Shown here in pieces: positions 36,624 through 59,936 of a stretch of DNA of 64,000 nt. This DNA comes from Tautonia marina. GTDB taxonomy: Bacteria; Planctomycetota; Planctomycetia; Isosphaerales; Isosphaeraceae. The number at the start of each line of letters is the position of its first letter. Position 1 is the first letter of the stretch. A program made the position numbers and the translations under genes. The stretch is from the NCBI RefSeq assembly GCF_009177065.1, contig NZ_WEZF01000023.1, positions 1 to 64,000 on the forward strand, read 5' to 3'. The notes below the pieces were generated by a model. It was not told the DNA's origin. It did not search any database and worked only from the letters and a program-made list of their open reading frames with translations.

Positions 36624-36640
36624 GCCGGCCAGACCTTCCC

Positions 36641-42579: not shown

Positions 42580-42775
42580 TCGACCGATCAATCTGACTCA
42601 GGTCCTCAAGCGTGTCGGTTGGGTCGACAACGGCGGTCAGGCCAAGGCCCTGATCGCCGAGGGCCTGGTTCGTGTCAACGGCGAGGTCGAATTTCGCAAA
42701 CGCCGTCAGATGTCGGTCGGAGACTCGGTCCAGCTCGACATTGATGAGCCTCCCCCCCCCGTCCATCTGGTCTGA
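42536..42775 (+). CDS. Small S4-domain RNA-binding protein
   Basis: A 79-aa protein with an S4 fold: LTQVLKRVGWVDNGGQAKALIAEGLVRVNG followed by KRRQMSVGD, as in the YbcJ/YaaA/RlbA group linked to ribosome assembly or tRNA and rRNA binding. A short PPPP tail ends the protein. The start is either this ATG, preceded by AAGGCGG, or one seven codons on. It overlaps the cvpA 3' end by 44 bases, so it is likely co-translated. Confidence 0.8.
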   Translation: MENRASAMNELPVGDRPINLTQVLKRVGWVDNGGQAKALIAEGLVRVNGEVEFRKRRQMSVGDSVQLDIDEPPPPVHLV

Positions 42776-42910
42776 CGGCGTCGAGCCGTCGCCCGCTCCT
42801 TGCCTCGATCGAGGCCCCTCCTCTCGCTCGCCGATCACGTCGGCCCGCGGAACCTTCTCCCGCCAGCGGGTCAGCTTTCACCAACTGCCACGCCGACCGG
42901 AGCAGGAATC

Positions 42911-44299: not shown

Positions 44300-44568
44300 C
44301 ATTTTGAAAATGCACATTCCCTTGATTTCTTCACCTCTCCCACACAAATATAGATCAAGCAATTGTCTGATTCTTGAGCCGAGCACTTGCCCCTGGGACA
44401 TTGATTGCTTAGGTTCTAACGTGGTGTGCGATGGAGCGGACTTCCTGGAGACGAGTGATTTCAAGGTCTCAGCCGGGTCGTGGTTCCGACGTTCGTCGGG
44501 AGCACTATCATGCCGGTGGGATGTTGTTCTACTCATCGTCATCAGCCGCCTGAAGCATTCGTGACCCA

Positions 44569-45657
44569 ATGACATGTTGGGACAACGGCCGCTCCATCAA
44601 CGACTTTGCTGACGAACGATTGCAACGTTCTTCGAGGTTCATTTTGTCGATTCAGACTTCACATCCGAAGCAACACCGTCTGGAATTAATCCGCGTCAAA
44701 CCGTCCGAGGTGTTTGAATCCGAAACACTGAATGAGACGGTCAAACGCGGCCTCACCCATCAACCCAAGTACTTACTCTGCCGATTTATTTACGACGCGA
44801 TCGGCTCGGAGTTGTTCGAACAGATCTGCGATCAACCGGAATATTACCTGACCCGCACCGAGGACGCGATTCTTCGAGACCACGCCGAGAACATGGTCGA
44901 TGGCTGGGACGAACCGCCCACCATGATCGAACTGGGGAGCGGAAGTTCCACGAAAACGCGCCGATTGATCGAGGCCGCTCTCGAACGCTACGGCTCCCTT
45001 CATTACGTTCCGATCGACATTTCGGAAACCATTCTCGAAGAATCGGCCCGGACTCTGATCGACGATTATTCCTCAGCATTGCACGTCACCGGTATCGTGT
45101 CGGATTACGACTCTGCTCTGCGTGTTGTGGCCGATCGCATCAAAGGCCCCAAGCTTCTCGTTTTCCTTGGCTCAAGTCTCGGCAACTTTGACGATGAGGA
45201 TGCCGTCGAACTTCTGCGACGGATTCAGACAACCCTCTCGACCGATGACCGATTTCTGTTCGGCACGGATCTGGTCAAGGATGCGAAGGTTCTCGAAGCG
45301 GCTTACGACGATTCCGCAGGTGTGACGGCCCGATTTGGGAAGAACATTCTCACGCGGATCAACCGAGAACTCGGCGGCAACTTCGATCTCGACTGCTTTC
45401 GCTATGAAGCTCGGTTCTCTGCCGAGCATCATCGCGTTGAGATGCGTCTGATCAGCGAGGCCGATCAGATCGTTACCATTCCAAAGCTTGATCTTGTCGT
45501 GCCATTCAGATCAGGAGAATCGATTCATATCGAGAATTCTCACAAGTACACACCGACTCTTCTCGATCAACTTGCCAAGCGATCTCGATTTGTCGAGGAA
45601 ACGTCATGGACTGATCCGGATGGATATTATCGCGTCCAGCGATGGCATGTGTCTTGA
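44569..45657 (+). CDS. egtD: L-histidine N-alpha-methyltransferase EgtD
   Basis: A 362-aa SAM-dependent enzyme that trimethylates histidine to hercynine, the first step of ergothioneine synthesis. Typical features are LTHQPKYLLCRFIYDAIGSELFEQI near residue 60, PEYYLTRTEDAIL near 90, the SAM-binding MIELGSGSSTKTRRLIEA near 118 and FLGSSLGNFDDEDA near 198, and GTDLVKDAKVLEAAYDD near 236. The C-terminus has HIENSHKYT and TSWTDPDGYYRVQRW. The first 35 residues lack family similarity, so a downstream start is possible. The gene is visibly less GC-rich than its neighbours and faces egtB tail to tail. Confidence 0.93.
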   Translation: MTCWDNGRSINDFADERLQRSSRFILSIQTSHPKQHRLELIRVKPSEVFESETLNETVKRGLTHQPKYLLCRFIYDAIGSELFEQICDQPEYYLTRTEDAILRDHAENMVDGWDEPPTMIELGSGSSTKTRRLIEAALERYGSLHYVPIDISETILEESARTLIDDYSSALHVTGIVSDYDSALRVVADRIKGPKLLVFLGSSLGNFDDEDAVELLRRIQTTLSTDDRFLFGTDLVKDAKVLEAAYDDSAGVTARFGKNILTRINRELGGNFDLDCFRYEARFSAEHHRVEMRLISEADQIVTIPKLDLVVPFRSGESIHIENSHKYTPTLLDQLAKRSRFVEETSWTDPDGYYRVQRWHVS

Positions 45658-45679
45658 CGTGCCCACGCAAAGCACACCG

Positions 45680-45707
45680 ATGAGGGACGACATTGACCGT
45701 CCCTCAT
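45680..45707. terminator. Bidirectional terminator between egtD and egtB
   Basis: ATGAGGGACG at 45680-45689 pairs perfectly with CGTCCCTCAT at 45698-45707 across an eight-base loop. It stands 23 bases after the egtD stop. AT-rich DNA follows on the plus side, and the minus strand downstream of egtB also has T-rich stretches, so it probably serves both convergent genes. Confidence 0.65.
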
Positions 45708-45759
45708 TCTCACAATAACACACACGCACCAATAAATATCAACACATAAATATTTGTTT

Positions 45760-47067
45760 TTAGATCAGCTGAGCAAGCCGGATTCCGGAAAACTGCCAGC
45801 GAGCATCTGTGTAGAAGAAATTGCGATAGGTCGGGCGAAGGTGATCTCGGGGAGAAACACAGGATCCTCCCCGAAGCACCTGCTGATTACACATGAATTT
45901 TCCATTATATTCTCCAACAGCTCCCGAGGCGGGACGGAACCCGGGGTAGGGAAGATAAGCGCTTGCCGTCCATTCCCAGACATCCCCGAAAAACTGGTCC
46001 GGTTCGGTGTCCGTACCGGAGATGGTGGGAGCGGGATGATAGCGGCGCGAGTCCAGGAAATTCCCGGAGATGGCGACATCAGCCGCTGTCTCCCACTCAG
46101 CCTCGGTGGGCAATCGAGCGCCTGCCCATCGGGCAAACGCATCGGCCTCGTAATAGCTGACGTGGCAGACCGGTTCAGCGGGATTGACTGGCAGCATTCC
46201 CGCAAGTGTGAAGGTCCACCACTCGTCCCCCTCACGCTCCCAGTACAGAGGTGCAACCCATCCTTGCTGCTGGACGGTGGCCCAGCCATCTGAGAGCCAG
46301 GCATCAGGCCGGGAGTAGCCGCCATCTGCCATGAATGCCAGGTACTCACCATTTGTGACCGGTCGTGATGCGATACGGAAGCCGTTGACGAATTCCCGAT
46401 GCCGGGGACCTTCATTGTCGTAGGCGAATCCGTCTCCCTCATAACCCACCCATCGAACGCCTTCGGGATAGGCCAACCACCGCAGTGCGGGGGCGTTTTC
46501 CATCGAAGCCGGATCTCGGTGTTTGTAGACCGGGCGAAGCGGATTATGCCACAGAGCGTGCTTCAGATCGGTCAGCAAGAGCTCTTGATGTTGTTGTTCG
46601 TGGTTCAGGCCAAGGGTCAGCAAGGGGCGAATACGATGAAGCAGGTCCAGGTCAGCGCCGTCCAGGAATTCCGTCATGCTTCGGTCGACCGCGGCGCGAT
46701 ACTCGAAAACCTCCTGGACCGAGGGGCGTGTGATGAGTCCTCGTTGCGCACGGGAAAGCCGTTGACCGACCGCGTTATAATAAGAATTAAACAGATATGA
46801 AAATTGAGGATGATGAACGCGATAGCCTGGTGCAAACGCAGCCAGAATGAATTCCTCGAAGAACCAGGTCGTGTGCGCCAGGTGCCATTTGACAGGGCTG
46901 GCGTCCGGCATCGACTGCACGACGAAATCCTCGGGATTCAGCGGCTCACAGAGGGCAATCGAGGTGTGTCGGACTGAGGTGAAGTTTTGGATCAGGACAT
47001 CTGATGCAGGGAGATTGTCCGTCGAGCCGCCAGCTGCCGGAAGCGAGGTGTGGGGCGATGACGTCAT
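45760..47067 (-). CDS. egtB: Ergothioneine biosynthesis sulfoxide synthase EgtB
   Basis: A 435-aa non-haem iron enzyme that joins hercynine to a thiol donor (gamma-glutamylcysteine or cysteine) using oxygen. The N-terminal DinB-like domain carries KWHLAHTTWFFEEF near residue 60 and the iron site NHEQQHQE at 155-162 (H156, H160, E162). The C-terminal formylglycine-generating-enzyme-like domain shows RWVGYEGDGFAYDNEGPRH, GDVWEWTASAYLPYPGF near 360 and LRGGSCVSPRDHLRPTYRNF near 395. All iron ligands are present. The ATG without the 13-residue extension has GGAG upstream. It converges on egtD. No egtA, egtC or egtE is visible. Confidence 0.94.
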   Translation of the reverse strand: MTSSPHTSLPAAGGSTDNLPASDVLIQNFTSVRHTSIALCEPLNPEDFVVQSMPDASPVKWHLAHTTWFFEEFILAAFAPGYRVHHPQFSYLFNSYYNAVGQRLSRAQRGLITRPSVQEVFEYRAAVDRSMTEFLDGADLDLLHRIRPLLTLGLNHEQQHQELLLTDLKHALWHNPLRPVYKHRDPASMENAPALRWLAYPEGVRWVGYEGDGFAYDNEGPRHREFVNGFRIASRPVTNGEYLAFMADGGYSRPDAWLSDGWATVQQQGWVAPLYWEREGDEWWTFTLAGMLPVNPAEPVCHVSYYEADAFARWAGARLPTEAEWETAADVAISGNFLDSRRYHPAPTISGTDTEPDQFFGDVWEWTASAYLPYPGFRPASGAVGEYNGKFMCNQQVLRGGSCVSPRDHLRPTYRNFFYTDARWQFSGIRLAQLI

Positions 47068-47723
47068 TGCGAACTCCGGATGGCTGACCTTCGAGGAGAG
47101 TCTCACGACCTGTTCTAGAGCCCCCTCACGGAGGCGTCAAGCCGTCCACCATGACCGGCTGACTCGTCGCGACGGAAAAACTTGAGAAAGATTTTCAGAA
47201 AAACGCAATTAAGCCTGCCCTTTCTCACGATGATGAAGAATAGAACGCCACGACGGTTGCACCACTCACGAGGGCCGGGGCTGGTATCAATGAGTCCCTC
47301 CAAGGCTCTCAACCGACTCTTGCAACGACTGCTTGATCCCGTTCGACGATGATTGCCGAGCGGTACCCCGAAGAATCCGAACGTGCGGGAGCGTTTCACG
47401 TCAAGGCACAACCGAGGATTGTCGCGTCGCTGACGATGGGGATTCCTCAATTGACGTGCAGATGAGATGCCAACGGGTTGCGACGGAGTTGACCTGGTTC
47501 GACATCGGACCAGACGCAACACCACGATCACACCCTCTTGAAGTTCGGCCTTCGGTCATCGCTCGCTCAGGTGCAGCTCAAGACAGCCAACGGTTCTGGA
47601 ATTCCGCGTGTAAGACACCAAGATCAACCGCTCCGGCCCGGCTCGGGTCTGGGCCACGTCCACGATGCCCTATCGGTCGCCTCCCGTCGAAAGGGACGGT
47701 GCCCATTCGGCAAAGGTCCGACC
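47068..47723. other. Gap between egtB and the phage-like cassette
   Basis: A 656-base stretch. The part near 47175-47245 is AT-rich and probably holds the egtB promoter. From about 47330 on the open frames have poor composition and no family resemblance; in particular no small terminase gene is seen where one would be expected. No tRNA, attachment site or integrase is visible at this border of the cassette. Confidence 0.4.
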
Positions 47724-49265
47724 ATGCCGAAACGAACACGAGAAAAACCCGAATCGCTCGAGATCGGACTTGAGTCGCGCCCCGACTCTGAGCGGAGCTT
47801 GCGGCGATGGGTCCGAACCTATGCCGGCCTCTGGATTCCGCACCGAGCGGTTTGTCGCGGGCATCAGTCACCCTGGCGTTTTTTCGCCGACGTCTTCCTC
47901 AATCGCCCTCCGGTCGCGTTGGTTCTGGGTCCCAGAGGAGGAGGGAAGTCGTACCTGTCAGCCCTTGAAACCCACCTGACGAGCCGGTTCGATCCCGAGC
48001 ATGGAACGCGACTCCTGGGCGGCAGTCTCGCTCAGTCGCAACAGGCCCACGAAGCGCTCGCCCACCTGGCCCAAGACGACCCGGCTCTGGAGAAACTCAC
48101 TGAATCCAAGGCGATTTATGCAAACGGCTCTGAGGTTCGCGTGCTGGCCGCTTCACCCACCAGCGTCAGAGGGCCTCATGTGCCGAGCCTGAAGCTCGAC
48201 GAGGTCGATGAGATCGACCCTGATTGCCGAGACGCCGCGCTAGGCATGTGCATGAATCGAGGATCAACCTCTGCCTCGGTTCTGATGACCTCGACCTGGC
48301 ACCGTGTCGATGGCCCGATGTCGAAACTCATCGAGCGAGCCCGAGCCGGCGAATTCCCGTTGTATTCCTTCTGCATCTTCGAGGTCTTGCAACGCTGCCC
48401 CGAGGAACGAAGCGGCCCCAACCTGGAAAAATGCCACGAATGTCCGCTCGTCTCCTGGTGCCACGAAGACCGCGACGACGACCCGCTCAACCGACCGAAA
48501 GCCAAGCGAGCGACCGGGCACTACGGAATCGACTCCCTGATCCAGAAGGCTCGCGTGGTCAGCCGACGGACCTTCGAAGCCGACTACCTTTGCCGCGGCC
48601 CCAAGGCCGATGGCCTCTGGTTCGCCGAGTTCGACCCCGTGGTCAACGTCTGCACGTCAGCGGAATACGACCCGAACTGGCCGGTGCATCTGGCCGTCGA
48701 TTCGGGTGTCTACACCGGCGCAGTCTTCTTCCAGGTCGTGCCGAAACCGACTCCCACCGGCATGGTCGACGAGGTGCACGTCTTCGCCGAATACCTTCAA
48801 GACAACACCCCTGCCGAGCACGACGCGAGGGCCATCCTCGAAGTCGCCCGACAGCATTGCAACGGCCGAATCGCCATCGCCTCCACGGATCCGGCAGGCA
48901 ATTCCAGAACCGCCGTCGGGCCCACGGTCCTGGGTGAATACGAACGAGGGGGGTTAAAAAACCTTCAGTTCTGGCCAAGCGGCGCGTCCGTCACCGACGG
49001 TCTGGCCCTGGTCGAATCTTTCCTGAGACCGGCCGACGGCGGAACCCGGTTGCTCGTTCACCCGCGTTGCGAGGACACCATTCGAGCCTTCCAGCACTAT
49101 CGTCGAGCCAAGCGGGCCGGCCAATGGACCGATCAGCCCGAAGACCCCCAGCATCCTCACGAGGACCTTCTCGACGCCTTGCGAGGAGGGCTCCGAATTC
49201 GATACCCGCAGGGCCGCTGCCCACCACCGACGATGAACCGCGTTCCCGCCCGCAATGTGTTCTGA
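47724..49265 (+). CDS. Phage-type terminase large subunit
   Basis: A 513-aa DNA-packaging motor. The ATPase domain has Walker A VLGPRGGGKS (69-76) and Walker B LKLDE (158-160), with the MTSTWHR coupling motif near 188. The nuclease domain has acidic residues in HLAVDSGVYTG (D326), STDPAGNS (D389) and PHEDLLDALRGG (E480, D481, D484), so both activities look intact. A four-cysteine insert at C225, C237, C240 and C246 joins the domains; some phage terminases of this type share it. The ATG fits the family; the longer frame is not similar. It opens a same-strand cassette with portal and capsid genes. No small subunit is visible. Confidence 0.9.
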   Translation: MPKRTREKPESLEIGLESRPDSERSLRRWVRTYAGLWIPHRAVCRGHQSPWRFFADVFLNRPPVALVLGPRGGGKSYLSALETHLTSRFDPEHGTRLLGGSLAQSQQAHEALAHLAQDDPALEKLTESKAIYANGSEVRVLAASPTSVRGPHVPSLKLDEVDEIDPDCRDAALGMCMNRGSTSASVLMTSTWHRVDGPMSKLIERARAGEFPLYSFCIFEVLQRCPEERSGPNLEKCHECPLVSWCHEDRDDDPLNRPKAKRATGHYGIDSLIQKARVVSRRTFEADYLCRGPKADGLWFAEFDPVVNVCTSAEYDPNWPVHLAVDSGVYTGAVFFQVVPKPTPTGMVDEVHVFAEYLQDNTPAEHDARAILEVARQHCNGRIAIASTDPAGNSRTAVGPTVLGEYERGGLKNLQFWPSGASVTDGLALVESFLRPADGGTRLLVHPRCEDTIRAFQHYRRAKRAGQWTDQPEDPQHPHEDLLDALRGGLRIRYPQGRCPPPTMNRVPARNVF

Positions 49266-49343
49266 TGCGAGGCGATGCCGATCGGACGGAGCCGGAACCC
49301 CAGAGGACTCACCACCATCGCGTTCGCTAGCCCAAAGACTCCC

Positions 49344-50969
49344 ATGATGCACCATCGTGAATCACTCGAACTGATCAGCCGCAGACACGTGGAATGGCAA
49401 GAGCACCACCAGCGCTGGCGCTGGCTGCTCGACTCACTCGAAGGGGGTGAGCGTTACCGCCACGCCGTCTATGGCTACGACCGACGCGGGTTGCCCGTCC
49501 GCAACCTGATTCGTCACAAACGTGAATACCCCGATCCGAGAGAGGCCGATAGCTTCGCTCCCCTCCCGGGAACCGACCCGTTCACGCCGCTCTCCGGATT
49601 CGGAACCGATCCCGCCACCCTGGCCACCGATGACGATTACGAACTCCGGCGCGCCCGGACTCCCGTCCCGACCTTCCTGGCCGAGGCCATTGAAACCCAT
49701 CTGGCCCGCCTGTTTGCCCGGGAGGTCAAGCGATCCGGACCAGACGCCTTGATGGACTGGTGGCAAGATGTGGATGGATGCGGCACCACCATTGATCAGT
49801 GGATGGCCGAAACCGTCGCGCCGCTCTTGCTGACCCTGGGGCAGCTCGACATCTGCTTCGATCATCCCCCCGCCCCTGCCGGCGAGTCGATCGAAACCGG
49901 AGCCGATGTCGTTCGACTCGGGCTCGACACCTGCGTTGCCTCCTGCATCTTGCCGGAGAACATGCTCTGGTGGCGGCTCGATGACCAGGGGAAACGCTAC
50001 CTCGAATGCCTCGTCCTCGAACGTCACGACTCCGGCGAAACGATCAACACCTGCTATCGTCACTGGACGAGTGAAGGTTCCACACTCTATGCCGAGGATG
50101 GAGAGGTTCTTGCCAAAACGCCCCACCCATTCGGTCAGGTGCCCATCATCCGGCTCTTTGATCGACGCAAACCCCGCTGCCGCAACATCGGACAGTCTCG
50201 ATATGAAGGGATCGCCGAACGTCAGCGCGAATATTACAACCGCGACTCCGAGCTGATCCTCTCCGACACGACCCAGGCTCACCCCTTGCTCCAGGGGCCC
50301 GAAGACTACGTCCAGCCGGACGGTTCGGTGCCGATTGGGCCGGGCTGGCTCCTGCCGAAGAAGAAAAACTCCCAGGGCGGTCAGACGACTTACGAAGGAT
50401 TCGACATCGTTGAATTTCCAAAGGATAGCGCCGAGTCGATCCGACGGAACAAGGCCGACCTGCGCGACGACGTCGATCGGGATGCCTCATTAATCCGTAC
50501 TCCCGTTCGAGAGGCCGGTGCCCAGTCGGGGCTGGCCAAGATGCTCGATCAGGCCGACGGCAACAACCGCCTGGCCAAGATTGCCCGGGTCCTCGCTCAG
50601 GCCGAACGCGTGGTGGCCGAGTTCGCGCTGACGGTCCTGAGCGATGGTCCCCCCCCTGTCTCGACGGTGGCCGCGATTGAAATCGTGTATCCCGCCGAGT
50701 TCGACCTCTACACCGCCGATGCGGTGGCACGGGCTACGGCCGACTTCCAGGCCCTTGCCACCCGGGCTGGTACCCTGCCCACCTGCGAAGGCCTGATGCT
50801 GGCCCGCCTGCTTCGCCTCTGCCTCCCGGGTCTGAGCGACCCTCAATATGCCGAGTGCGAACAGGAGATTGCCAACTACCTTGCCTGCAAAGCTCAGAGG
50901 CAAGATACGGGCCTCCCTTCCGACCAGATCGACCCTCGCGACGTTTTCCAGGACATCAATGTTCTCTGA
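49344..50969 (+). CDS. Portal-like protein
   Basis: A 541-aa protein in portal position, between terminase and scaffold. The N-terminal half is globular and mixed. A middle segment RNIGQSRYEGIAERQREYYNRDSELI, LDQADGNNRLAKIARVLAQAERVVAEFAL near residues 395-425 and a polar C-terminus fit portal proteins, whose long helix lines the DNA channel. Length (500-600) and gene order agree with the family. Two ATG codons stand side by side. The role as dodecameric DNA gate is inferred from order and pattern; no catalytic motif is expected. Confidence 0.7.
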   Translation: MMHHRESLELISRRHVEWQEHHQRWRWLLDSLEGGERYRHAVYGYDRRGLPVRNLIRHKREYPDPREADSFAPLPGTDPFTPLSGFGTDPATLATDDDYELRRARTPVPTFLAEAIETHLARLFAREVKRSGPDALMDWWQDVDGCGTTIDQWMAETVAPLLLTLGQLDICFDHPPAPAGESIETGADVVRLGLDTCVASCILPENMLWWRLDDQGKRYLECLVLERHDSGETINTCYRHWTSEGSTLYAEDGEVLAKTPHPFGQVPIIRLFDRRKPRCRNIGQSRYEGIAERQREYYNRDSELILSDTTQAHPLLQGPEDYVQPDGSVPIGPGWLLPKKKNSQGGQTTYEGFDIVEFPKDSAESIRRNKADLRDDVDRDASLIRTPVREAGAQSGLAKMLDQADGNNRLAKIARVLAQAERVVAEFALTVLSDGPPPVSTVAAIEIVYPAEFDLYTADAVARATADFQALATRAGTLPTCEGLMLARLLRLCLPGLSDPQYAECEQEIANYLACKAQRQDTGLPSDQIDPRDVFQDINVL

Positions 50970-51112
50970 TCACCCTTGAGTCACCGGCCCGGACGGTGAC
51001 ATCACGCTCGAATCTGTTCTTCACCGTGAAATCAACCATCAAAACACGTCCGGATGACCCGACTCGGGCCAGAGCCGGAGCCATTCCGGAACCTCAAAAC
51101 GAGGGGACTGTC

Positions 51113-51232
51113 ATGGCTCACGAAATGATTCCGCAATTGCTCGCCGCCATGGTCGTCAGTCTGTTCCTGCTGTCGGCCCTGACCACCGTGGTCATCCCCA
51201 TGGCGTTTGGACTCTTCGACCGCCGCCCCTGA
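51113..51232 (+). CDS. 39-aa single-span membrane protein
   Basis: A tiny protein with one hydrophobic helix (about residues 8-32) and the end FGLFDRRP. GAGGGG is correctly spaced upstream of the ATG. It lies between portal and scaffold genes. Its size and single span recall small holin-like or particle membrane proteins, but nothing proves a lysis role. Confidence 0.6.
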   Translation: MAHEMIPQLLAAMVVSLFLLSALTTVVIPMAFGLFDRRP

Positions 51233-51256
51233 TTTCTCGACCTCCGAGTATGGATC

Positions 51257-51886
51257 ATGACGATGTATCGCATCCTGTTGAATCCAGACACCACTGACGA
51301 AGGGACGCCGGTCGCCGACGAGATGGTCAGCATCTCTGCGTCGGATCTGGAAGCCCTTCGGGCGGCCGCCGCAAGTGCGAAGAAGATCTCCGAGGCGAAT
51401 GATCGAGCCGCCGAGCGATCCCTCGCCAATGATCGCCTGCGAGAGGAGGAGATCGCCCGTTGGTCGAAGAAGGCCGAGGACTGGGAACGAGCCTTCAAGA
51501 CCGCCACCAAGGAAAAAGAACTGGCCACCGTCCTGGCCAGCCGTCCCCTGGTTCAGGGGGCCGCCTCTCAGCTCATCAAGCTTTGGCGAGATGAGCTGGA
51601 GGTCATCGACGACGCCGGCCAGATTCGTGTCGCAACCCGAGACGGGCGTTCCGTCTCCGACGCCGTCAACGCCTGGCTGGCCAGTTCCGAGTATGCCCAC
51701 TTCTCCCGGCCGAGTTCTCGGGGAGGGACCACGCCACCCGGCGATTCCCGATCCACCGCGACCGCGCCGGCCGCCCCCCCACCGAAGAACCTGGGGGAAG
51801 CGGTCTTGATGCGATGGCGAGAGGCACTCCAGGGCAATCGCCAGGACCCCGATGCCCCCATCGGGCTTGGCCGCCGTCGCTTCTGA
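51257..51886 (+). CDS. Scaffold-like protein
   Basis: A 209-aa charged protein immediately before the capsid gene. Residues 28-85 are helical and coiled-coil-like (ALRAAAASAKKISEANDRAA, then RLREEEIARWSKKAEDWERA), and the C-terminal third is a proline/serine-rich linker ending in a basic RRRF tail. This is the usual design of capsid scaffolding proteins, which bind the coat by a basic C-terminus and leave before packaging. No protease gene is seen. The function is inferred from position and architecture. Confidence 0.6.
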   Translation: MTMYRILLNPDTTDEGTPVADEMVSISASDLEALRAAAASAKKISEANDRAAERSLANDRLREEEIARWSKKAEDWERAFKTATKEKELATVLASRPLVQGAASQLIKLWRDELEVIDDAGQIRVATRDGRSVSDAVNAWLASSEYAHFSRPSSRGGTTPPGDSRSTATAPAAPPPKNLGEAVLMRWREALQGNRQDPDAPIGLGRRRF

Positions 51887-51959
51887 AGGATGATCCCACC
51901 GACCGTTTGTTCCTTCGATTCCATGGTTTCCTTGAACTTCACTTGAGAAAGACAGACCA

Positions 51960-53102
51960 ATGTCCACCACGTTCCTGCAAGGCATTCAGCGCGCGTCCGA
52001 CCACCAGGCCCAGATCCGCAACGACGTTCACGTCGTCGCCACCAACTGGTTCGTCAACCGATGCCCCCTGGTCACCCGCTTGCCACGTCTGCCGGTCGGT
52101 TCCACCACGTTCTCGATGGTCAACCGGGCGTTCCGGAAACGGCTCGCAACCCTGACCGCCGCCGTGGCGGTTGGCGACGAACAGATCGCGTTCGATGATG
52201 CCAGCTCGTTCATGATCGGCGACGTGCTGGAACTGCCGTCGGGCGAACGCGTCGAGGTCCTCGAATTCCCGGAAGGCTCGACCGTCATCGTCAAGGTCCG
52301 CCGCGCCGTGGAGGGAACGACCGCGGCCACTGCGGCCATCGACGACGAGGTCCGACTCATCGGCAACAGCCGATCCGGCTCCGAGATCAACCAGAGCGCC
52401 GTTGCCTTGCAGCCGACCGGCATCGCCCAGTACTGCCAGACCTGGCAGCACCCGGTTCAGGTCGGTGGCTCGCTCCAGTCGAGCCTCGGCTATCAGACCT
52501 CGCCCGGCATCCAGACCCCGTTCGACCAGCACCGAATGGACGCCCTGCAGAACCTGCTCGATGACATGGAAGTCTCCTGCTACTACGGCCTCGGCGAGTC
52601 TCCCACCGTCTCCGGTCGGCCGAAGCAGCGCGGCCTGCGAGCCTTGCTCACGACCAACCGGATCACCGCGCCGACCAGCGGCAGCGGCTACAAGCCGAGC
52701 GACCTGGTCCGAGACACGCTGGAACGCTGCCGGGCCAACGGCGGCTCGCCCGACGTTCTGATGGTCTCGACCAACTTCATGACCGGCCTGGCCATCTGGG
52801 GGCACGCGGCCCAGCGAATCGACGCCGGTGTCAACGTCTTCGGGTTGCCGATCGACGTCTTCGAGGCTCCCTTCCTCGGCGGCATCTCGCTCATCGAAGC
52901 CCCCTTGCTCCGCCCCTTCACGGCCATCGCCCTGACCAGCTCCGAGGTCCGGCTCCGCATGAAGCGCAACGAGTACTGGAATCCTCGCGGGAGCCGGGGC
53001 GACGCCCTCGAAGGCGACTGGATCGCCGAAGGGGCCATCGAGGTCGAGAACGAGGCTCATCACGCCTGGCTCGAAGGCATCACCGCCTTCTCGGCAAGCT
53101 AA
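51960..53102 (+). CDS. Major capsid protein, SU10/DUF5309-like
   Basis: A 380-aa protein that fits the HK97-fold coat proteins of the SU10/DUF5309 type. NRCPLVTRLPRLPVGSTTFS near 33, an inserted beta domain VGDEQIAFDDASSFMIGDVLELP near residues 73-125 and QYCQTWQHPVQVGGSLQSSL near 157, with the LDDMEVSCYYG helix near 200, follow that family's pattern. The C-terminal half contains MVSTNFMTGLAIWG and RMKRNEYWNPRG. It should form the particle shell. A strong hairpin follows it. Confidence 0.78.
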   Translation: MSTTFLQGIQRASDHQAQIRNDVHVVATNWFVNRCPLVTRLPRLPVGSTTFSMVNRAFRKRLATLTAAVAVGDEQIAFDDASSFMIGDVLELPSGERVEVLEFPEGSTVIVKVRRAVEGTTAATAAIDDEVRLIGNSRSGSEINQSAVALQPTGIAQYCQTWQHPVQVGGSLQSSLGYQTSPGIQTPFDQHRMDALQNLLDDMEVSCYYGLGESPTVSGRPKQRGLRALLTTNRITAPTSGSGYKPSDLVRDTLERCRANGGSPDVLMVSTNFMTGLAIWGHAAQRIDAGVNVFGLPIDVFEAPFLGGISLIEAPLLRPFTAIALTSSEVRLRMKRNEYWNPRGSRGDALEGDWIAEGAIEVENEAHHAWLEGITAFSAS

Positions 53103-53133
53103 CGCCACGCCAATCCGCCAGGTAAACGCTTTC

Positions 53134-53162
53134 GCTGGGGACCCGATTTCCGGGTCCCCAGC
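53134..53162 (+). terminator. Strong hairpin after the capsid gene
   Basis: GCTGGGGACCCG (53134-53145) and CGGGTCCCCAGC (53151-53162) pair perfectly with a five-base loop, 32 bases after the coat gene stop. No T run follows. It may end or attenuate transcription so that capsid mRNA exceeds that of the downstream genes. Confidence 0.6.
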
Positions 53163-53205
53163 ATTCGCTCGCATCGCGACGTGCGATCACGCAAAGGACG
53201 CAGTC

Positions 53206-53577
53206 ATGACTCCACCCCGATTCCATTTCCGTGGCTACCCGGAATTCCTCGCCGCCGCCGCCGAACACGCCGGCCGCCCCGACCTCGCTGGTCCTGCCGG
53301 ACGGGTCGAAGCACTGGCCGCTCTTGCGGTTCTTTGCTCCCAGGCGGTCGAGGCCGACCGCGACCGAGCCACGGCCATCCTCCAGCAGGCGGCCGAGTTC
53401 CGCCACCAGCTCAAAATCTCGTTCGACGCCGCGGACGCCATGCTTCGTGCCGTGGCAACCGCCTGTGGCGCCGACAGCATCATCGCAACCCCGCAGGATC
53501 CGTCCAGGCAATCGTCCGGGAAACGATCTCGACGCCGAAAACCGTCACCCGATTCGACCCCCCACGAGGCACCATGA
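53206..53577 (+). CDS. Cassette protein, unknown (123 aa)
   Basis: A 123-aa alanine-rich helical protein (VEALAALAVLCSQAVEADRD, ATAILQQAAEFRHQLKISFD) with a basic serine/proline tail containing GKRSRRRKP. I do not recognise it. It is coupled to the next gene by an ATGA overlap and lies just after the coat gene, where head-decoration or connector proteins are often found. Confidence 0.6.
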   Translation: MTPPRFHFRGYPEFLAAAAEHAGRPDLAGPAGRVEALAALAVLCSQAVEADRDRATAILQQAAEFRHQLKISFDAADAMLRAVATACGADSIIATPQDPSRQSSGKRSRRRKPSPDSTPHEAP

Positions 53578-54230
53578 ACACCACGTACACCAACTATGCA
53601 AGCGACGAAGAAGTCGCCTTGCTTTCCCCCTCCGACGTGGGTCCTCTGTTCCCTGACGATCAGCGCATCGCGTCTGGCGTCGATGGCAGCTTCGATCCCT
53701 CGGATCGCTGGACCCTCCACTGCAGTTCCGTCACCTTTACCGACTCGGGACTCCACCCGGGTCATGTGGTTCGGTTACTCGCCCCCGTCGACCGATTCCC
53801 TCACCCTGGAGCCCTTTTTGGGGTGGCCGAGGTGGGGGAACACTTTGTGAAACTTCGCCGTCTCGGCATGGCTCCAGGGTTAGGTGAACCCGTCGCCCCC
53901 CCTGAGGGATTGGCCGACGTTTCGTTCGTAATCATGACACTCGACCCGCAGATCAGTCAGGCCAGCCGAGAGGTCGACGGGTTGCTTGGCATCCGGACCA
54001 CCACTCCCTCCCTGCCTGGTCTCGACGGGATCTCTCTGCGCGATGCCGTCGTCCGATTGGTCCTGGCCCGTCGCTATGCGGCCATCATGCGAGACGGCGA
54101 CACGGCCTTCGCAATCCGGGCCAGGCTTTTCGAAGCCAGCTTCGAACGATTGATGACTCGGTTATTCATCAGTGAAAACCTTATCCATCCCGACCGGATC
54201 CCTCGACTGGGTACTCGCCTGACACGATGA
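53574..54230 (+). CDS. Cassette protein, possible head-tail connector (218 aa)
   Basis: A 218-aa acidic protein. The N-terminal YASDEEVALLSPSDVGPLFP is followed by a beta-rich region and a helical C-terminus VVRLVLARRYAAIMRDGDTA, with IRARLFEASFERLMTRLF. Position after the coat gene and the N-terminal D-x-x-V pattern resemble connector or neck proteins, but similarity is weak. Both its start and its stop sit in ATGA overlaps. Confidence 0.6.
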   Translation: MNTTYTNYASDEEVALLSPSDVGPLFPDDQRIASGVDGSFDPSDRWTLHCSSVTFTDSGLHPGHVVRLLAPVDRFPHPGALFGVAEVGEHFVKLRRLGMAPGLGEPVAPPEGLADVSFVIMTLDPQISQASREVDGLLGIRTTTPSLPGLDGISLRDAVVRLVLARRYAAIMRDGDTAFAIRARLFEASFERLMTRLFISENLIHPDRIPRLGTRLTR

Positions 54231-54367
54231 CCCGAGCCGTGGCCATGACTCCGTTCCGCGTTGCCCCCCCTCCCTGTTCCGAACCATCGTTTTCTGACGT
54301 ACCCGAGGCTCGCCGCCTCGGGAGCGTCGCAGTTCACAGGTTGACTCATGAGCGTATCCGACTGTAA
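54227..54367 (+). CDS. Possible 46-aa protein in the neck region
   Basis: A short frame whose ATG overlaps the stop of the preceding gene (ATGA) and whose end overlaps the next gene by 20 bases. The peptide (MTRAVAMTPFRVAPPPCSEP and on, ending HERIRL) is basic and shows no known motif. The repeated ATGA coupling in this cassette supports translation; low complexity argues against it. Confidence 0.35.
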   Translation: MTRAVAMTPFRVAPPPCSEPSFSDVPEARRLGSVAVHRLTHERIRL

Positions 54368-54797
54368 TGCTTACGACACGATCGTTTCGTGTCTGGCGGC
54401 AACTCGTCTCTTCGGCACCGTTCTGCTCGACGACGTCGACCGCTCCCTCGGAGAGCCACACGCCAACCCCCTTGCCATCGTCTCGCCCGGTTCATGGACG
54501 GAATCGATGACCGACGATCCCTCGCGAGCGGTTCGTCTCGTCCATTACCGGGTCACAATTCGGGTCCGAGCCAATCATCCCCGAGCCCGATTGCTCGAAG
54601 CCGACCGCCTCACCCGGGAAGTCATCGCCCGATTGAACGGGGCAAACGTTGGGGAAGGGTGTGTCACTCGCCTGTCTTCCATTCATCGCGGCGAGTCGCG
54701 CCTCTCTTCGGGCAGCGGAGAAGCCATCTGCGAACTCAAAGGGAGCTTTTCCGTCCTGGTTCCCTCCTCATTCGCCTCTTCAATCACAACCGAGTAA
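54348..54797 (+). CDS. Cassette protein, tail-terminator/neck-like (149 aa)
   Basis: A 149-aa alpha/beta protein: VHYRVTIRVRANHPRARLLE near residue 65, EADRLTREVIARLNG near 84 and a final strand pair around EAICELKGSFSVLV. The order long strand - helix - strand with an R-x-L-E-x-D helix is like small tail-terminator and tail-completion proteins (DUF3168-type), which cap the tail tube. The match is by pattern only. If right, it is the only tail-related gene in the cassette. Confidence 0.5.
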   Translation: MSVSDCNAYDTIVSCLAATRLFGTVLLDDVDRSLGEPHANPLAIVSPGSWTESMTDDPSRAVRLVHYRVTIRVRANHPRARLLEADRLTREVIARLNGANVGEGCVTRLSSIHRGESRLSSGSGEAICELKGSFSVLVPSSFASSITTE

Positions 54798-54912
54798 CCC
54801 GATCTTCAACCCGCCTTCGAGCCGACCCCGACCGTGACCTCACGACGGATCAGGCCTTCTTCGATCCGTCTGCGACGTCCCCGGGCCGTGGCTCACCACT
54901 GGGAGGATTCTC

Positions 54913-55125
54913 ATGAATCTGGTCCGAATCGGTTCGATCTATGTGAATTTTGATCGCGTGGCAATGATCCGGAACCTGACCCCCGATCCCGACGACCCCC
55001 AACCGCTCGTCCGCCTCGAATTTGGCGAGGGGCATCATGTTGACGTGACCAACCATGCCACCGAGCTCCTGCAATGGGTCGAACAGCGCATGACCGATGT
55101 GACCGACCCTCCCGTTCTTCCTTGA
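54913..55125 (+). CDS. 70-aa protein closing the cassette
   Basis: A 70-aa acidic, beta-rich protein (VRIGSIYVNFDRVAMIRNL, then LVRLEFGEGHHVDVTNHATE). GGGAGG with good spacing precedes the ATG. I do not recognise it. After it come hairpin-forming GC-rich DNA (GCGGGT/ACCCGC at 55182-55196) and conserved host genes, so it marks the right border of the phage-like cassette. Confidence 0.6.
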   Translation: MNLVRIGSIYVNFDRVAMIRNLTPDPDDPQPLVRLEFGEGHHVDVTNHATELLQWVEQRMTDVTDPPVLP

Positions 55126-55251
55126 GCCGCGAGGGTCGTAGCGGCATCGGTCGCCAATCGACCCACAACGGGCGTCGGCGGGCGGGTTCGACCCGCGGGA
55201 GGGAACGAAGGACGAGTCTCCCGCCCTCGCGTCCTGAAATGGCAGCGTGGG

Positions 55252-55476
55252 TTAGGACGGATCGACCTTGGCATCGCCCGCCTTCACGCAGGCAAGATCC
55301 GAGAGCGAATGACACCCTTCGGGTAATTCGGCCTCCTCGATCAGCATGTTCGGAATATCATCTTTGACGGCGAACCGAACTCCGCACCGGGAGCAGACCA
55401 GCGTCTGATCTTCCAGCCGCAACGGAGCTTTGCCCATCGGGCAAACAAGCAGAGACAGCAATTCCTCGCTGATCAT
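55252..55476 (-). CDS. Trm112 family zinc-ribbon protein
   Basis: A 74-aa protein of the Trm112/YcaR group. LLSLLVCPMGKAPLRL and LVCSRCGVRFAVKDDIPNML near residues 8-44 are the family core, with C12, C28 and C31 as metal or structural cysteines; the second position of the N-terminal pair (CPMG for CPxC) is not a cysteine. Eukaryotic Trm112 activates methyltransferases; bacterial roles are unclear. The start is set by family length; the longer open frame is not similar. It is divergent from the ketoacyl synthase gene. Confidence 0.82.
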   Translation of the reverse strand: MISEELLSLLVCPMGKAPLRLEDQTLVCSRCGVRFAVKDDIPNMLIEEAELPEGCHSLSDLACVKAGDAKVDPS

Positions 55477-55660
55477 CGGAGCCTCGTTCCTCTTTGGCTG
55501 GCGACTCCCCTTCGGGCGGTCGTCGCTTCCCGTCGATGGCGTCTGGCCGTCATTATGGAAGACGAGGCCAGGAGACGGAAGTCGAATCTGGCTGGTGAGC
55601 AGGCTGAACACGTTCGGCCTCCCGTCCCAATCGCCCAGGTCCGTCATCAAGCGAGCAGCG

Positions 55661-56932
55661 ATGCGCAACGTGCCGATTCGGCGAGTGGTCGTCACAGGAT
55701 TGGGTGCCCTCAGCCCCAACGGCGTCGGAATCGACGCCTTCCGAAGCGCCCTGCGAGCGGGCCGCAGCGGAGTGACGACCGTCCAGGAGTTCGACACCTC
55801 CGGTCTTGGCAGCCGGATTGCCGGCGCGATCCGAGGCATCGACCTCCGCGACGCCATGGACCCGAAACAACTCAAGGTCGTCAGTCGAGCCGTCCCCCTC
55901 GGGATCCTCGCCGCCCGAGAGGCCATGACCGATGCCGGATTCCCCCCGAGCGACCTCGAACTCGAGACCCGTCGCCAAATTGGAGTCTTGCTCGGCACCG
56001 GCGGCGGTGGAATCGCCTTCGTCGAAGAGCTGTACGGCTACTACTACAACGGGCAGCTCGAAAAGGCCACCGCCCTGGCCGTTCCGGCGGGAACGCCCGG
56101 CAACATCTCGTCGGAGCTGTCCATCCAGCTCGGCGTCCGGGGGCCGTCTCACGTCATCTCGACCGGCTGCACCTCCAGCACCGACGCCATCGGCTACGCC
56201 TTCCGTCGCATCCAGTACGGCGAAACCCCACTCATGCTCACCGGAGGCGCCGATGCCCCGATCGCGCCGGCCATCATGCTCGGCTTCGATGTCATGGGGA
56301 TCATCTCGCGCAACTGGAACGACCAGCCCGAGCGTGCCTCCCGCCCCTTCAGCCGCGACCGCGACGGCTTCGTGCTGGGCGAAGGTTCGTGGATGCTCGT
56401 GCTGGAGGAGCGTGAACACGCCCTGGCCCGGGGCGCCCGGATCTACGGCGAACTGCTCGGCTACGCGAGCACCTGCGACGCCTGGCACCGCGTCTCGATG
56501 TCGAGCGACCTCGATGAGCCCGTCCGGGCCGTCCAGCTCGCCTTGCAAGACGCTGAGCTCTCGCCGGCCGACATCGACTATGCCAACCTCCACGGCACCG
56601 CCACCCCCCTGAACGACCGGGTCGAAACCGCCGCTCTGAAGCGGGCGCTCGGCTCGCATGCCTCGGCGATCCCGATGTCCAGCACCAAGAGTATGATCGG
56701 CCACCCACAAGGAGCCTGCGGAGCCGCCGGTCTGGTCGCCACCTTGCTCGGCCTCGATGCCGGATTCCTTCCACCGACGATCAACTGCGAGGAGGCCGAC
56801 CCCGAGTGCGATCTCGACTACATCCCCCACCAGTCGCGCCCCGCCAACGGCGCCCGGATCGCCCTTTGCAATTGCATGGGATTCGGATCAAAAAACTCGG
56901 TTTTGATCATCCGTCAAGGAGACGAATCCTGA
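55661..56932 (+). CDS. Beta-ketoacyl-ACP synthase II-like (FabF family)
   Basis: A 423-aa condensing enzyme. The active-site cysteine is C170 in ISTGCTSSTDA, with the catalytic histidines H311 in NLHGTATPLND and H348 in MIGHPQGACGA and the lysine at 343. The C-terminal CNCMGFGSKNSVLII is standard. It performs decarboxylating condensation of malonyl-ACP. No acyl carrier protein, FabG or FabZ is adjacent, so it is probably not the housekeeping copy and may serve a special lipid or polyketide with the methyltransferase and FAD enzyme downstream (inference). The ATG excludes 77 non-family residues of the open frame. Confidence 0.9.
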   Translation: MRNVPIRRVVVTGLGALSPNGVGIDAFRSALRAGRSGVTTVQEFDTSGLGSRIAGAIRGIDLRDAMDPKQLKVVSRAVPLGILAAREAMTDAGFPPSDLELETRRQIGVLLGTGGGGIAFVEELYGYYYNGQLEKATALAVPAGTPGNISSELSIQLGVRGPSHVISTGCTSSTDAIGYAFRRIQYGETPLMLTGGADAPIAPAIMLGFDVMGIISRNWNDQPERASRPFSRDRDGFVLGEGSWMLVLEEREHALARGARIYGELLGYASTCDAWHRVSMSSDLDEPVRAVQLALQDAELSPADIDYANLHGTATPLNDRVETAALKRALGSHASAIPMSSTKSMIGHPQGACGAAGLVATLLGLDAGFLPPTINCEEADPECDLDYIPHQSRPANGARIALCNCMGFGSKNSVLIIRQGDES

Positions 56933-57108
56933 ACCCGGCTCCCCTGCTCCGCCCGACCCGATCGTCGGCAACGCTCGCTGCAATACACCACCTGTTCCCA
57001 GCAATCGCGCCACTTGCGACGATTCGAGAAGGGCCGCTGGCAGACGGGACAGACCTTCGACTCGCCCGGCTTCTCCGCTCGATCTCGCTTCCGAGGACGA
57101 TCGGGCAT
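56914..57108 (-). CDS. DUF2256 small cysteine-rich protein
   Basis: A 64-aa protein with the DUF2256 core KVCPVCQRPFSNRRKWRDCW then EQVVYCSERCRR. Cysteines C20, C23, C36, C43 and C47 could hold zinc. Function unknown. Its 3' end overlaps the ketoacyl synthase by 19 bases in convergent orientation. The ATG is chosen by family length; the longer frame adds 27 residues. Confidence 0.82.
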   Translation of the reverse strand: MPDRPRKRDRAEKPGESKVCPVCQRPFSNRRKWRDCWEQVVYCSERCRRSGRAEQGSRVQDSSP

Positions 57109-57265
57109 GGTCTTGACCTGGGCCAACGCAATAAACCACGAGCAGACCGCACACGAGCCGGTCCCCTCGCCTGCACGAATTTCGAACAATCTGCTAGACT
57201 ACCGCGTCTCGGTCCCTCGGGGAACGGACACCAGCGTGATCGGATCACAACCCAAGGGGGCGATC

Positions 57266-57697
57266 ATGAGTCTTCGCGAAGTGCTGGCTGGCGCGGTCGC
57301 CCGTGACCCTCGCTACAGCATCGACGCCTACGAGTTCGTCTTCGCCGCCCTCGACCTGGCCAAGGTCCGCAAGCGCAAGGCTCGCCGAGCCCGTAGCCGC
57401 GGCCGGAAGCCTCGGGGGAAAAGTGAGTCGCGGCACGTCTCGGGCCGAGAGCTGAGTGAGGCCGCCCGCGACCTGGCGCTCGACCTCTACGGTCGCCTTG
57501 CCCTGACGATCCTGTCGAGCTGGGGCCTCCGATCAACCTCGGACCTCGGCGAGATCGTCTACATCCTGATCGCTTCGGGCGACCTCGAACGCTCAGACGA
57601 AGACCAGCGCAGCGACTTCGACAACGTCTACGACTTCGAGGCCGCGCTCTGCCACGACTATGTGATTCCGATCGAGGAGCCGGAGGACGCCTCATGA
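57266..57697 (+). CDS. Minf_1886 family protein
   Basis: A 143-aa protein of the Minf_1886 family, named after a Methylacidiphilum gene and common in planctomycetes and verrucomicrobia. DPRYSIDAYEFVFAALD is near residue 14, HVSGRELSEAARDLALDLYG near 58, and WGLRSTSDLGEIVYILIASG near 86. A basic insert KVRKRKARRARSRGRKPRGK near 33 is unusually long. No function is known. CAAGGGGG precedes the ATG. It is coupled by ATGA to the next gene. Confidence 0.85.
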   Translation: MSLREVLAGAVARDPRYSIDAYEFVFAALDLAKVRKRKARRARSRGRKPRGKSESRHVSGRELSEAARDLALDLYGRLALTILSSWGLRSTSDLGEIVYILIASGDLERSDEDQRSDFDNVYDFEAALCHDYVIPIEEPEDAS

Positions 57698-57924
57698 CCA
57701 CCACTCAAGATCAAGGCCCGACCTCGCATTCCCCCGAGGCCCCCGAACCAACCGTCACCCGTGGCCAGCGACTTCGATTCGCGGCGGCCCTGGTCGTGTT
57801 CGTGGCCTGGGTGGCGGGGCTCGCCCTGCTCGCGATCCGATCCGATCCCCCTCCCCCGCTCTCGGCCGATGATCGAGCCTCCGAGCCTTCGGCGACAGCG
57901 GCTCCTGATCCCCGGGAGGGATAA
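57694..57924 (+). CDS. Small single-span membrane protein (76 aa)
   Basis: A 76-aa protein with a polar N-terminus, one membrane helix near residues 29-48 (AAALVVFVAWVAGLALLAI) and a proline-rich tail. Unknown function. The ATGA overlap with the Minf_1886 gene and the TAATG overlap with the methyltransferase support that it is expressed in one operon with both. Confidence 0.7.
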   Translation: MTTTQDQGPTSHSPEAPEPTVTRGQRLRFAAALVVFVAWVAGLALLAIRSDPPPPLSADDRASEPSATAAPDPREG

Positions 57925-58691
57925 TGCCCCGATCGCGTCCCTGGCTCGTTCCCGACCGCCGCTCCGACCCGGAGCTAATGGACGCCCCCGGCCTTCCTGC
58001 CGAGGAGGTGGCCGACGCCTACGCCGTCCTCCGCCGGGTCAACCGCCACCTCGGGAACAACCGGGTCATCGACCACCAGGTCGGCCGGTTCGTGGTCGAA
58101 GACCCGATCGGTCCGGTCGTCTCGATGCTTGACGTCGGCTCCGGTTCGGGCGACATCCCGAGGCGAATTGGCCGCCGCCTGCTTCATCGTCCGGAAGTTG
58201 ACCGCGTCGTTCCCATCGCCCTCGACCGCGACCCGGTCGCAACCGCAATCGCCGGCGCCTCGTCGTTCGAAGGTTCGCCCGTCCAGGTGGTTCGCGGAGA
58301 CGCCCTGAGGCTCCCCTTCGCCGATCGGTCGGTGGACCTCGTCACCGCGGTCAAGTTCGCCCACCACTTCGAAGGAGAAACGCTCGCAAGGCTCCTCTCG
58401 GAGATGGCTCGGGTCGCCCGATGCCGGGTGATCGTCCTCGACATCCGGCGGCACTGGCTGGCCTACTGGGGATTCGTCGCCTGGAGCCGTGTCTTCACCC
58501 GCAACCGCCTCGTTCGCTTCGACGGCCCTCTGTCGGTCCTCCGGGGATTCACCGATGAGGAACTGATCGAACTGGCCTCCCCCATTCACGAATTTCGATG
58601 GACGGTTCAACGGGATCTTGGATTTCAGATCTCTTTGATTGGAAAACGCAAACAATTGTCAAAGACGAGCACAAATAACAGGTCAACATGA
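57924..58691 (+). CDS. Class I SAM-dependent methyltransferase
   Basis: A 255-aa methyltransferase. Motif I is SMLDVGSGSGDIPRRIG near residue 68, the acidic strand end IALDRDPVA near 98, VVRGDALRLPFADRSVDLVT near 120 and a post-motif AHHF near 146. This resembles UbiE-like or O-methyltransferases acting on lipids or phenolics. The WLAYWGFVAWSRVF stretch near 174 is hydrophobic and may sit at a membrane. The gene converges on the FAD oxidoreductase with a 9-base overlap; the two usually occur together in planctomycete genomes (recalled, not checked). Confidence 0.85.
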   Translation: MPRSRPWLVPDRRSDPELMDAPGLPAEEVADAYAVLRRVNRHLGNNRVIDHQVGRFVVEDPIGPVVSMLDVGSGSGDIPRRIGRRLLHRPEVDRVVPIALDRDPVATAIAGASSFEGSPVQVVRGDALRLPFADRSVDLVTAVKFAHHFEGETLARLLSEMARVARCRVIVLDIRRHWLAYWGFVAWSRVFTRNRLVRFDGPLSVLRGFTDEELIELASPIHEFRWTVQRDLGFQISLIGKRKQLSKTSTNNRST

Positions 58692-59921: not shown

Positions 59922-59936
59922 CGGCGGGGGTGCCTC

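Follow-up and report, generated by a model that had tools for sequence, protein, structure and literature searches.

The window analysed here, a 64,000-nt stretch of the Tautonia marina genome (contig NZ_WEZF01000023.1, positions 1 to 64,000), contains a cassette of phage-type head genes set between ordinary host genes, which we interpret as probably being a reduced gene transfer agent (GTA)-like element. An earlier note on this DNA had read a large terminase (TerL), a portal protein, a scaffold and an SU10-like capsid in that order and apparently intact, and family matches bear this out: the head genes follow one another on the plus strand without internal stops (Table 1). A conserved membrane protein of 39 amino acids (aa) had been overlooked, and the description of several ATGA-coupled small genes does not hold, as P5 and P6 alone overlap in this manner (-4) and the seven other junctions are gaps of +24 to +143 bases.

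Table 1. Features of the head cassette and its flanks; positions are those of the window.
Feature	Position	Strand	Evidence
Large terminase (TerL), 513 aa	47724..49265	+	phrog_2 1.1e-14; ATPase and nuclease residues complete
Portal protein, 540 aa	49347..50969	+	phrog_145 4.6e-36
39-aa hydrophobic protein with one transmembrane segment, ends GLFDRRP	51113..51232	+	10 further genomes encode a homologue between portal and scaffold
Scaffold-like protein, 209 aa	51257..51886	+	phrog_206 head scaffolding 1.5e-4; in relatives, too, encoded between portal and capsid
SU10-type major capsid protein, 380 aa	51960..53102	+	PF17236 8.5e-35; phrog_1328 2.4e-10
P5, 123 aa	53206..53577	+	ATGA overlap with P6; open in 4/4 genus genomes
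P6, 218 aa	53574..54230	+	retained by relatives with and without a tail; unmatched in Pfam and PHROG
P7, 149 aa, tail-terminator fold (neck cap)	54348..54797	+	predicted structure, Foldseek and VIA-align
Tail-module loss site (putative)	54798..54912	.	115 bases and P8 between P7 and the Trm112 flank
P8, 70 aa	54913..55125	+	same place in 4/4 genus genomes and in tail-less G027
5' flank: phosphofructokinase (PFK, +), EgtD (+), EgtB (-)	42911..47067		Pfam
3' flank: Trm112-like (-), FabF (+), DUF2256 (-), Minf-like (+), methyltransferase (+)	55252..58691		Pfam

The capsid protein scores 121.1 bits against PF17236, for which the curated cut-off is 24.1, and thus belongs to the SU10 major capsid family. 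Completeness of both terminase active sites, as claimed earlier, is upheld by an alignment of 21 TerL rows in which Walker A (G69, R71, G72, G74, K75, S76), Walker B (D159/E160) and the acidic residues D326, D389, D474 and D484 are invariant in 21/21; we take these residues to be the ATPase and nuclease sites. In the window's own genome there is one match each to the TerL profile and to the PF17236 capsid family, and a search of that genome with Terminase_6N gave no match, which says little because this model also misses the window's own TerL. None of P5, P6, P7 and P8 has a convincing sequence-family match in Pfam or PHROG. From its gene position P6 is a probable head-tail adaptor. The structural model of P7 (predicted local distance difference test, pLDDT, 84) matches T5 p142 (8bcu, Z 13.8), lambda gpU (Z 12.7) and a chain of the RcGTA virion (6tba_4A, Z 13.3, root mean square deviation (rmsd) 2.8 over 127). 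Relatives of the 39-aa protein, 37-53 aa long, are encoded at the corresponding position of 10 other genomes, and most have a terminal glycine and an RR motif; our guess is that it is a candidate membrane tether or holin-like protein that could tether or release particles.

No small terminase was recognised in the window, in agreement with the earlier note. In seven genomes of the family a small helix-turn-helix (HTH) gene lies just upstream of TerL (e.g. L064:7581-7910), its product sharing 42-70% identity with the first of five aligned rows, and this protein could be a small terminase or an activator. The corresponding stretch here (47068-47723) holds no homologue of it, and its profile finds nothing in the window's genome and, within the genus, matches G040 only. 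A small terminase hidden 5' of TerL was considered and set aside: short open reading frame (ORF) stretches there resemble those of G041 and hardly those of G040 or G042, and no clear gene emerges.

The genus, as sampled, comprises the window's genome (G000), G041, G040 and G042. In all four the gene order is PFK-EgtD-EgtB-TerL-portal-39-aa protein-scaffold-capsid-P5-P6-P7-P8-Trm112-FabF-Minf, with TerL identity of 83-95% at the same slot; P7 is longer in G040 (250 aa) and G042 (432 aa), and EgtB adjoins the cassette in this genus only. Parts of the slot recur in other genera. PFK and EgtD lie upstream in G041, G040, G042, G004 and G043 and PFK in G007 and G015, while on the downstream side G004 has P7, a P8-like gene, Trm112 and Minf, G027 has P7, P8, Trm112, Minf and the methyltransferase, G043 has Trm112, Minf and the methyltransferase, and G011 has Trm112; in G015 the slot is split, with PFK upstream on one contig and a tail followed by Trm112 and Minf on another. 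The element lies elsewhere in three g19 genomes, where it adjoins genes that we take, from their sequence, to be gyrB and dnaN, and in g18/g2 genomes, which share upstream neighbours of their own, so that there is not one slot across the whole family. A clean empty site in close relatives, which the earlier note held would betray a recent prophage fragment, was not found, all three genus relatives carrying the cassette. Near-empty slots occur in the near-complete genomes G038 and G039 of another genus, in which EgtD is followed after ~220 and ~135 bases by host genes from beyond the cassette; on the rpoB tree these two group with cassette-bearing G007, G043 and G044 (support 88/87, modest), and the near-empty slot reads as a loss there. 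In G024, PFK and Trm112 are 2.4 kb apart with no cassette gene match between them.

Twenty flanking proteins (32870-47067 and 55252-61300) were scanned with Pfam. All matches were to host families, as the earlier note had indicated for the genes that follow the cassette, and four proteins had no match; besides the genes of Table 1 they include an FAD oxidoreductase and a DnaJ protein downstream and PrkA, DUF444 and SpoVR further upstream. No integrase, repressor, lysin, tail or other phage family was recognised among them, and the active-prophage set as a whole (integrase, repressor, replication, lysis, tail) is missing from these proteins and from the gene calls of the window. The earlier statement that tail, lysis, integration and repressor genes are lacking is thus borne out for the flanks and has to be qualified for the tail, given the tail-terminator fold of P7. 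There is no tRNA in the window and no Rfam match in 44000-58000. A PrkA-DUF444-SpoVR cluster, situated at 34563-39659 about 8 kb upstream of the cassette, is partly so placed in relatives.

A set of packaging and head genes of its own could also belong to a satellite that borrows the tails of a helper phage, since capsid-forming phage-inducible chromosomal islands (cf-PICIs) have head and packaging genes without a tail. As we understand their definition, cf-PICIs additionally carry integrase/excisionase and replication genes, and no integrase, excisionase, primase or regulator was found among the twenty flanking proteins scanned; a common slot and a host-like tree over several genera are, moreover, unlike a mobile satellite. 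We regard a satellite as very unlikely.

The distribution of the cassette was surveyed in 45 genomes of the host family Isosphaeraceae, which also served for the order-level profile search, and in a class sample of 347 Planctomycetia genomes that includes them (with at most four candidates scored per genome in the class-wide TerL profile search). TerL matches were found in 35/45 family genomes: 30 were full-length-type (>=55% identity over most of the protein, one being cut by a contig end), five were divergent C-terminal matches of prophage type (G008, G014, G017, G018, G023), and the remaining 10 genomes had none. Further, more divergent copies are present at G030:C15, G031:C114 and G015:C221. 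No full-length-type TerL was detected in the remaining 302 Planctomycetia genomes, among which there was one 53-residue Walker-type match. The capsid family PF17236 is found in 31/45 family genomes, with a single copy in every genus genome (4/4), and in 0/14 controls; a capsid scan of genome contigs gave 5 loci. Matches of TerL in isolated phages are weak (13 records, none covering 80% of the query). In IMG/VR, 31 loci, some of which may be host DNA, match TerL at 28-58% identity, and in most of the closer ones the order of the cassette genes is the same. One member of the family sample, G034, is labelled Candidatus Kuenenia stuttgartiensis; its rpoB groups with the g19 genus, and it is probably a mislabelled metagenome bin.

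All nine cassette ORFs are open in 4/4 genus genomes, with small length differences. Ratios of nonsynonymous to synonymous substitution rates (dN/dS), computed by NG86 for the pair with G041, are low for TerL (0.056), portal (0.065) and capsid (0.059), and higher for P6 (0.104), P8 (0.141), scaffold (0.169), P5 (0.174), the 39-aa protein (0.214) and P7 (0.319). The values of TerL, portal and capsid resemble those of neighbouring metabolic genes (PFK 0.030, FabF 0.083, EgtD 0.087, Trm112 0.106, EgtB 0.109, Minf 0.110). In genus g18, head genes show 0.09-0.38, the tail genes c13 and c19 0.12-0.17 and 0.13-0.31, respectively, and the variable c51 0.48-0.69. Given that TerL keeps its translocase and nuclease residues, DNA packing itself still seems to be selected.

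Trees were built for TerL (34 rows), portal (32) and capsid (31) and compared with that of rpoB (30 rows). Clades that recur in all or most of them are the four genus members (with G000 and G041 together inside), G043 with G044, G001 with G002, the g18 genus with G031 and G032, the g19 genus, and the g13/g14 group, several of which are well supported in the rpoB tree. Pairwise distances correlate with those of rpoB for TerL (r = 0.745, 23 genomes, 0/2000 permutations as high), portal (r = 0.594, 22 genomes, 0/2000) and capsid (r = 0.43, 22 genomes, 1/2000). These correlations leave out G006, G033, G036, G043 and G044 (four with partial rpoB) as well as prophage-like, cut or duplicate rows (G014, G016, G037 and the second copies of G015, G030 and G031). 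The gene trees thus largely follow the host, and inheritance appears to have been mostly vertical, with exceptions in G005, part of g18 and the backbone.

These observations bear on the possibility, raised in the earlier note, that the cassette is a decaying prophage fragment retained by chance. The absence of tail and c11 homologues genome-wide (see below) and of integration and regulation genes from the scanned flanks would agree with it, as would the raised dN/dS of the small genes. Nine open ORFs in four genomes at one slot with 83-95% TerL identity, low dN/dS of the packaging genes, trees that largely follow the host, and the existence of near-empty slots elsewhere speak against it, and we consider such a remnant highly improbable. 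A recent prophage was likewise rejected on the basis of distribution and tree.

What distinguishes the cassette from its longer relatives is the stretch after P7. In G043, G011, G015, G026 and G007, P7 is directly followed by the genes c13, c18 and c14, and where the contig extends the module continues with c25, c31, c32, c19 and c9; in G043 and G015, which belong to other genera, cassette and tail module share the same PFK...Trm112-Minf slot. The same genes follow a P7-like gene, c34, in g18/g2 genomes and in the prophage-like clusters G030:C15 and G031:C114. PHROG and Pfam searches of ten proteins of the G032 element returned nothing convincing and leave the module unnamed, so that it is called a "tail" on the strength of two predicted folds, that of c13 and the terminator one of P7, and of gene order. 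The c13 model shows a tail-tube fold, with its best match to 8gtb (Z 11.8, rmsd 5.2 over 116) and further matches to the YSD1 tube (6xgr, Z 11.5, rmsd 2.7 over 112) and an RcGTA chain (6tba, Z 9.5), and c19 is called hub-like from its size and position only.

Genome-wide profiles detect c19 in 26/45 and c13 in 22/45 family genomes, and detect neither in the window's genus (0/4 each), G004, G027, G006 or g19 (0/4). Assembly gaps do not explain this absence in G004, a single-contig genome, or in G040, where the locus lies within an 8.7-Mb contig; completeness of G006, G027, G036 and G037 is 64-85%. For G007, G015, G021, G031 and G044 the tail state depends, in full or in part, on matches found on other contigs, and no state was assigned to G005 or to G006, where the contig with the cassette breaks off within the capsid gene. 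Both trees call for two or more changes of tail state, counts that cannot give a direction, and the presence of a tail terminator in tail-less members suggests a tailed ancestor. By this direction of change, the window's genus would have lost the module cleanly after P7. The tail-less G027 and g19 retain further genes beyond P6, including one for a large protein, c49, that also occurs in some tailed genomes and is missing from the window's genus, which has the barest form. In G034, the C-terminus of c49 (L080:1991-5140) matches the podophage fibre family PF23140 (4.5e-22) after a weak pectate-lyase-like start, and this protein could be a capsid or neck spike. P8 was considered as a marker of the tail-less state, which is only partly borne out: its profile is strong in the genus (4/4) and G027, and weak matches are scattered over six further genomes, among them one of 25 residues elsewhere in tail-less G004. 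That genome also has, beside Trm112, a 60-aa P8-like gene with a weak BLAST label that the P8 profile misses.

Longer elements carry another conserved protein upstream of TerL, c11, found in 24/45 genomes and, in a single-protein search, in 0/4 of the genus, the window's genome included. Its reading as a lysis-like peptidase was a guess; because neither Pfam nor PHROG names c11, its absence says little about lysis. In the G032 element, a sigma-70-like factor and a D5-like primase/helicase (DUF5906, Pox_D5) lie downstream of the tail genes (L102:14101-18139), and some relatives have members of these gene clusters in a downstream position as well.

The earlier suggestion that remaining parts reside elsewhere in the genome found no backing, as c13, c19, c11 and the HTH gene recovered nothing in searches that did not extend to unrelated tail and lysis families. 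The same limit applies to the idea that an unrelated tail locus somewhere in this genome provides the tail in trans, which would yield a tailed particle. That the parts of a GTA are often distributed over several loci (PMC9662315), and that P7, a head-to-tail joiner, has been retained, would fit such an arrangement. The tube-like and hub-like profiles of the family find nothing in the genus, and the single matches of TerL and SU10 capsid reported above likewise argue against it, and we judge it unlikely.

Several known systems provide points of comparison. SU10-type phages and the virus of the VP1 capsid 9in6, which are tailed viruses, have their capsid family in common with the cassette. RcGTA, the capsid and terminase of which belong to other families than those of the cassette, resembles it in that the P7 and c13 models match chains of its virion (6tba). 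GTAs have been defined by proteins derived from caudoviricetes, caudovirion-like particles, packaging of mostly random host DNA, an endogenized genome that is too large for the head, mostly vertical inheritance, and delivery of DNA to cells (PMC9662315), and their particles are said to consist of a capsid and an attached tail (PMC11841831). In the present case, family matches of TerL, portal and capsid together with the P7 fold point to a caudoviricete ancestor; the locus is endogenized, occupying the same slot between host genes in 4/4 genus genomes and in other genera with no integrase among the twenty flanking proteins; and co-diversification with the host is evident for the most part, with the exceptions given above. 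Head and neck genes are open, and the family's own tail module is absent genome-wide. With three features seen in the sequence and the tail in doubt, we use the term GTA-like for the element and stop short of classing it as a GTA. An active prophage is not indicated either, the family tail and c11 being absent genome-wide in addition to the genes lacking in the gene calls and flanks.

Like the cassette, RcGTA (Rhodogtaviriformidae) and the Caulobacter CcGTA are tailed-phage structural clusters that are vertically inherited, fixed in the chromosome and co-diversifying with their hosts (PMC9662315); RcGTA differs in having a 49-nm tail (PMC9662315) and a host of another phylum, while the cassette here is without a tail module. 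Particles of the Bartonella GTA, BaGTA, were first reported as tail-less or short-tailed in B. henselae, but reports disagree and long tails are described in another species (PMC9662315). The GTA-like FpGTA I of Faecalibacterium forms particles without an identifiable tail, yet products of its cluster resemble proteins of short-tailed phages (PMC12946183), whereas the window's genus keeps only the neck protein of terminator fold. Among planctomycetes, a predicted prophage of Zavarzinella formosa has been described with a TerL related to RcGTA-like ones (PMC7947584). A term search of a comparative genome paper on four Isosphaeraceae returned no mention of phage, capsid, terminase, virus or gene transfer agent (PMC5352709), and no report of a planctomycete GTA appeared among the matches listed in the open-licence PMC literature, mostly as titles and abstract starts. 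The cassette looks like a GTA-like element reduced to its head, in a phylum with none known to the authors.

Taken together, the locus is best read, with somewhat better than even confidence, as a reduced GTA-like element, family-wide and mostly vertically inherited, that has lost its tail in this genus and has kept a DNA-packaging head under selection; the domesticated DNA-packaging particle, GTA-like or tail-less, that the earlier note offered as its second possibility is supported as far as sequence can go. The slot can do without a cassette, being nearly empty in G038 and G039, and the head genes have nevertheless been kept here. An ancestor of the planctomycete family would have captured a tailed-phage structural cluster, which became fixed in the chromosome and was inherited from then on, and in the window's genus the whole tail module would have been deleted after P7, leaving TerL, portal, scaffold, capsid, P5-P8 and the microprotein intact under purifying selection. 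Capsid and scaffold may then build a head on the portal; TerL, without a genome of its own to favour, may drive host DNA into it by headful packaging; and P6 and P7 may close the neck, giving a DNA-filled, tail-less head. Such heads could be released when a minority of cells lyse or could be kept in the cell, and the host DNA they hold would be protected or shared. A DNA parcel freed by lysis could aid survival if neighbours take up DNA; Caulobacter GTAs have been reported to aid stationary-phase survival and DNA repair (PMC9632790).

A number of points weigh against this interpretation. Particle, cargo and transfer are predicted from the genes, which keeps every functional step conditional. 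We know of no way in which a tail-less head could inject DNA, and "gene transfer" in the strict sense is doubtful. The small cassette genes (scaffold, P5, the 39-aa protein and P7) evolve faster, the 39-aa protein reaching dN/dS of 1.17 and 0.60 in farther pairs, on 39 codons, and YN00 gave no values for pairs with G040 and G042. The trees also disagree in places: G005 stands beside G004 in rpoB and weakly so in TerL, and takes a different position, on a long branch, in the portal, capsid and joined trees; G030 with G033 is starred in rpoB, with G029+G033 instead in TerL and (starred) in the joined tree; G011 with G026 is starred in rpoB and weak or missing in the others; and the backbone among group I genera (those with the PFK/Trm112 slot and near relatives) is left unsettled. 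Prophage-type relatives within the family (G030:C15, G031:C114, G015:C221 and the five genomes with divergent matches only) imply that related elements have also moved, and the sigma factor and primase/helicase of G032 suggest that these longer forms may stand closer to prophages than a classical GTA does. Confidence in the c13 model is modest (pLDDT 70), and four other models reach 38-43.

We tentatively go one step beyond the reduced GTA-like element itself and propose, as a possibility, that the cell maintains a head-only DNA-packaging particle, the tail having been discarded, probably in more than one lineage, with selection acting on packaging and sealing and not on injection. Such a particle could serve, for instance, as a protected package of DNA that is shared through lysis and uptake, or as a means of stowing or destroying pieces of the chromosome. 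Co-option for a task other than transfer, such as a compartment in which DNA is stored or discarded or interference with infecting phages, is a related alternative, to which the persistence of TerL, portal and capsid through the inferred changes of tail state and the conserved membrane microprotein within the cassette would lend themselves. The retention of translocase and nuclease residues by TerL and the absence of a PADLOC defence match in the eight proteins scanned are arguments to the contrary, and we hold this alternative to be rather improbable.

If the cassette is indeed part of a family-wide planctomycete GTA-like element, sister genera offer tailed, tail-less and near-empty versions of one slot, and such variants would allow one to ask what GTA-like elements are kept for. 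If the tail is dispensable while the packaging motor stays selected, injection-based gene transfer may not be the whole benefit. The tail itself may shrink step by step across the family. In the elements compared (L111, L102, L114, L105, L108), the gene between c14 and c25, at the position of a tape measure, encodes 497-693 aa in prophage-like clusters; in longer elements it encodes ~200-350 aa, with an uncertain start (54 or 201 aa in G029, depending on the gene call), and in G011 it is absent, 8 bases separating c14 from c25.

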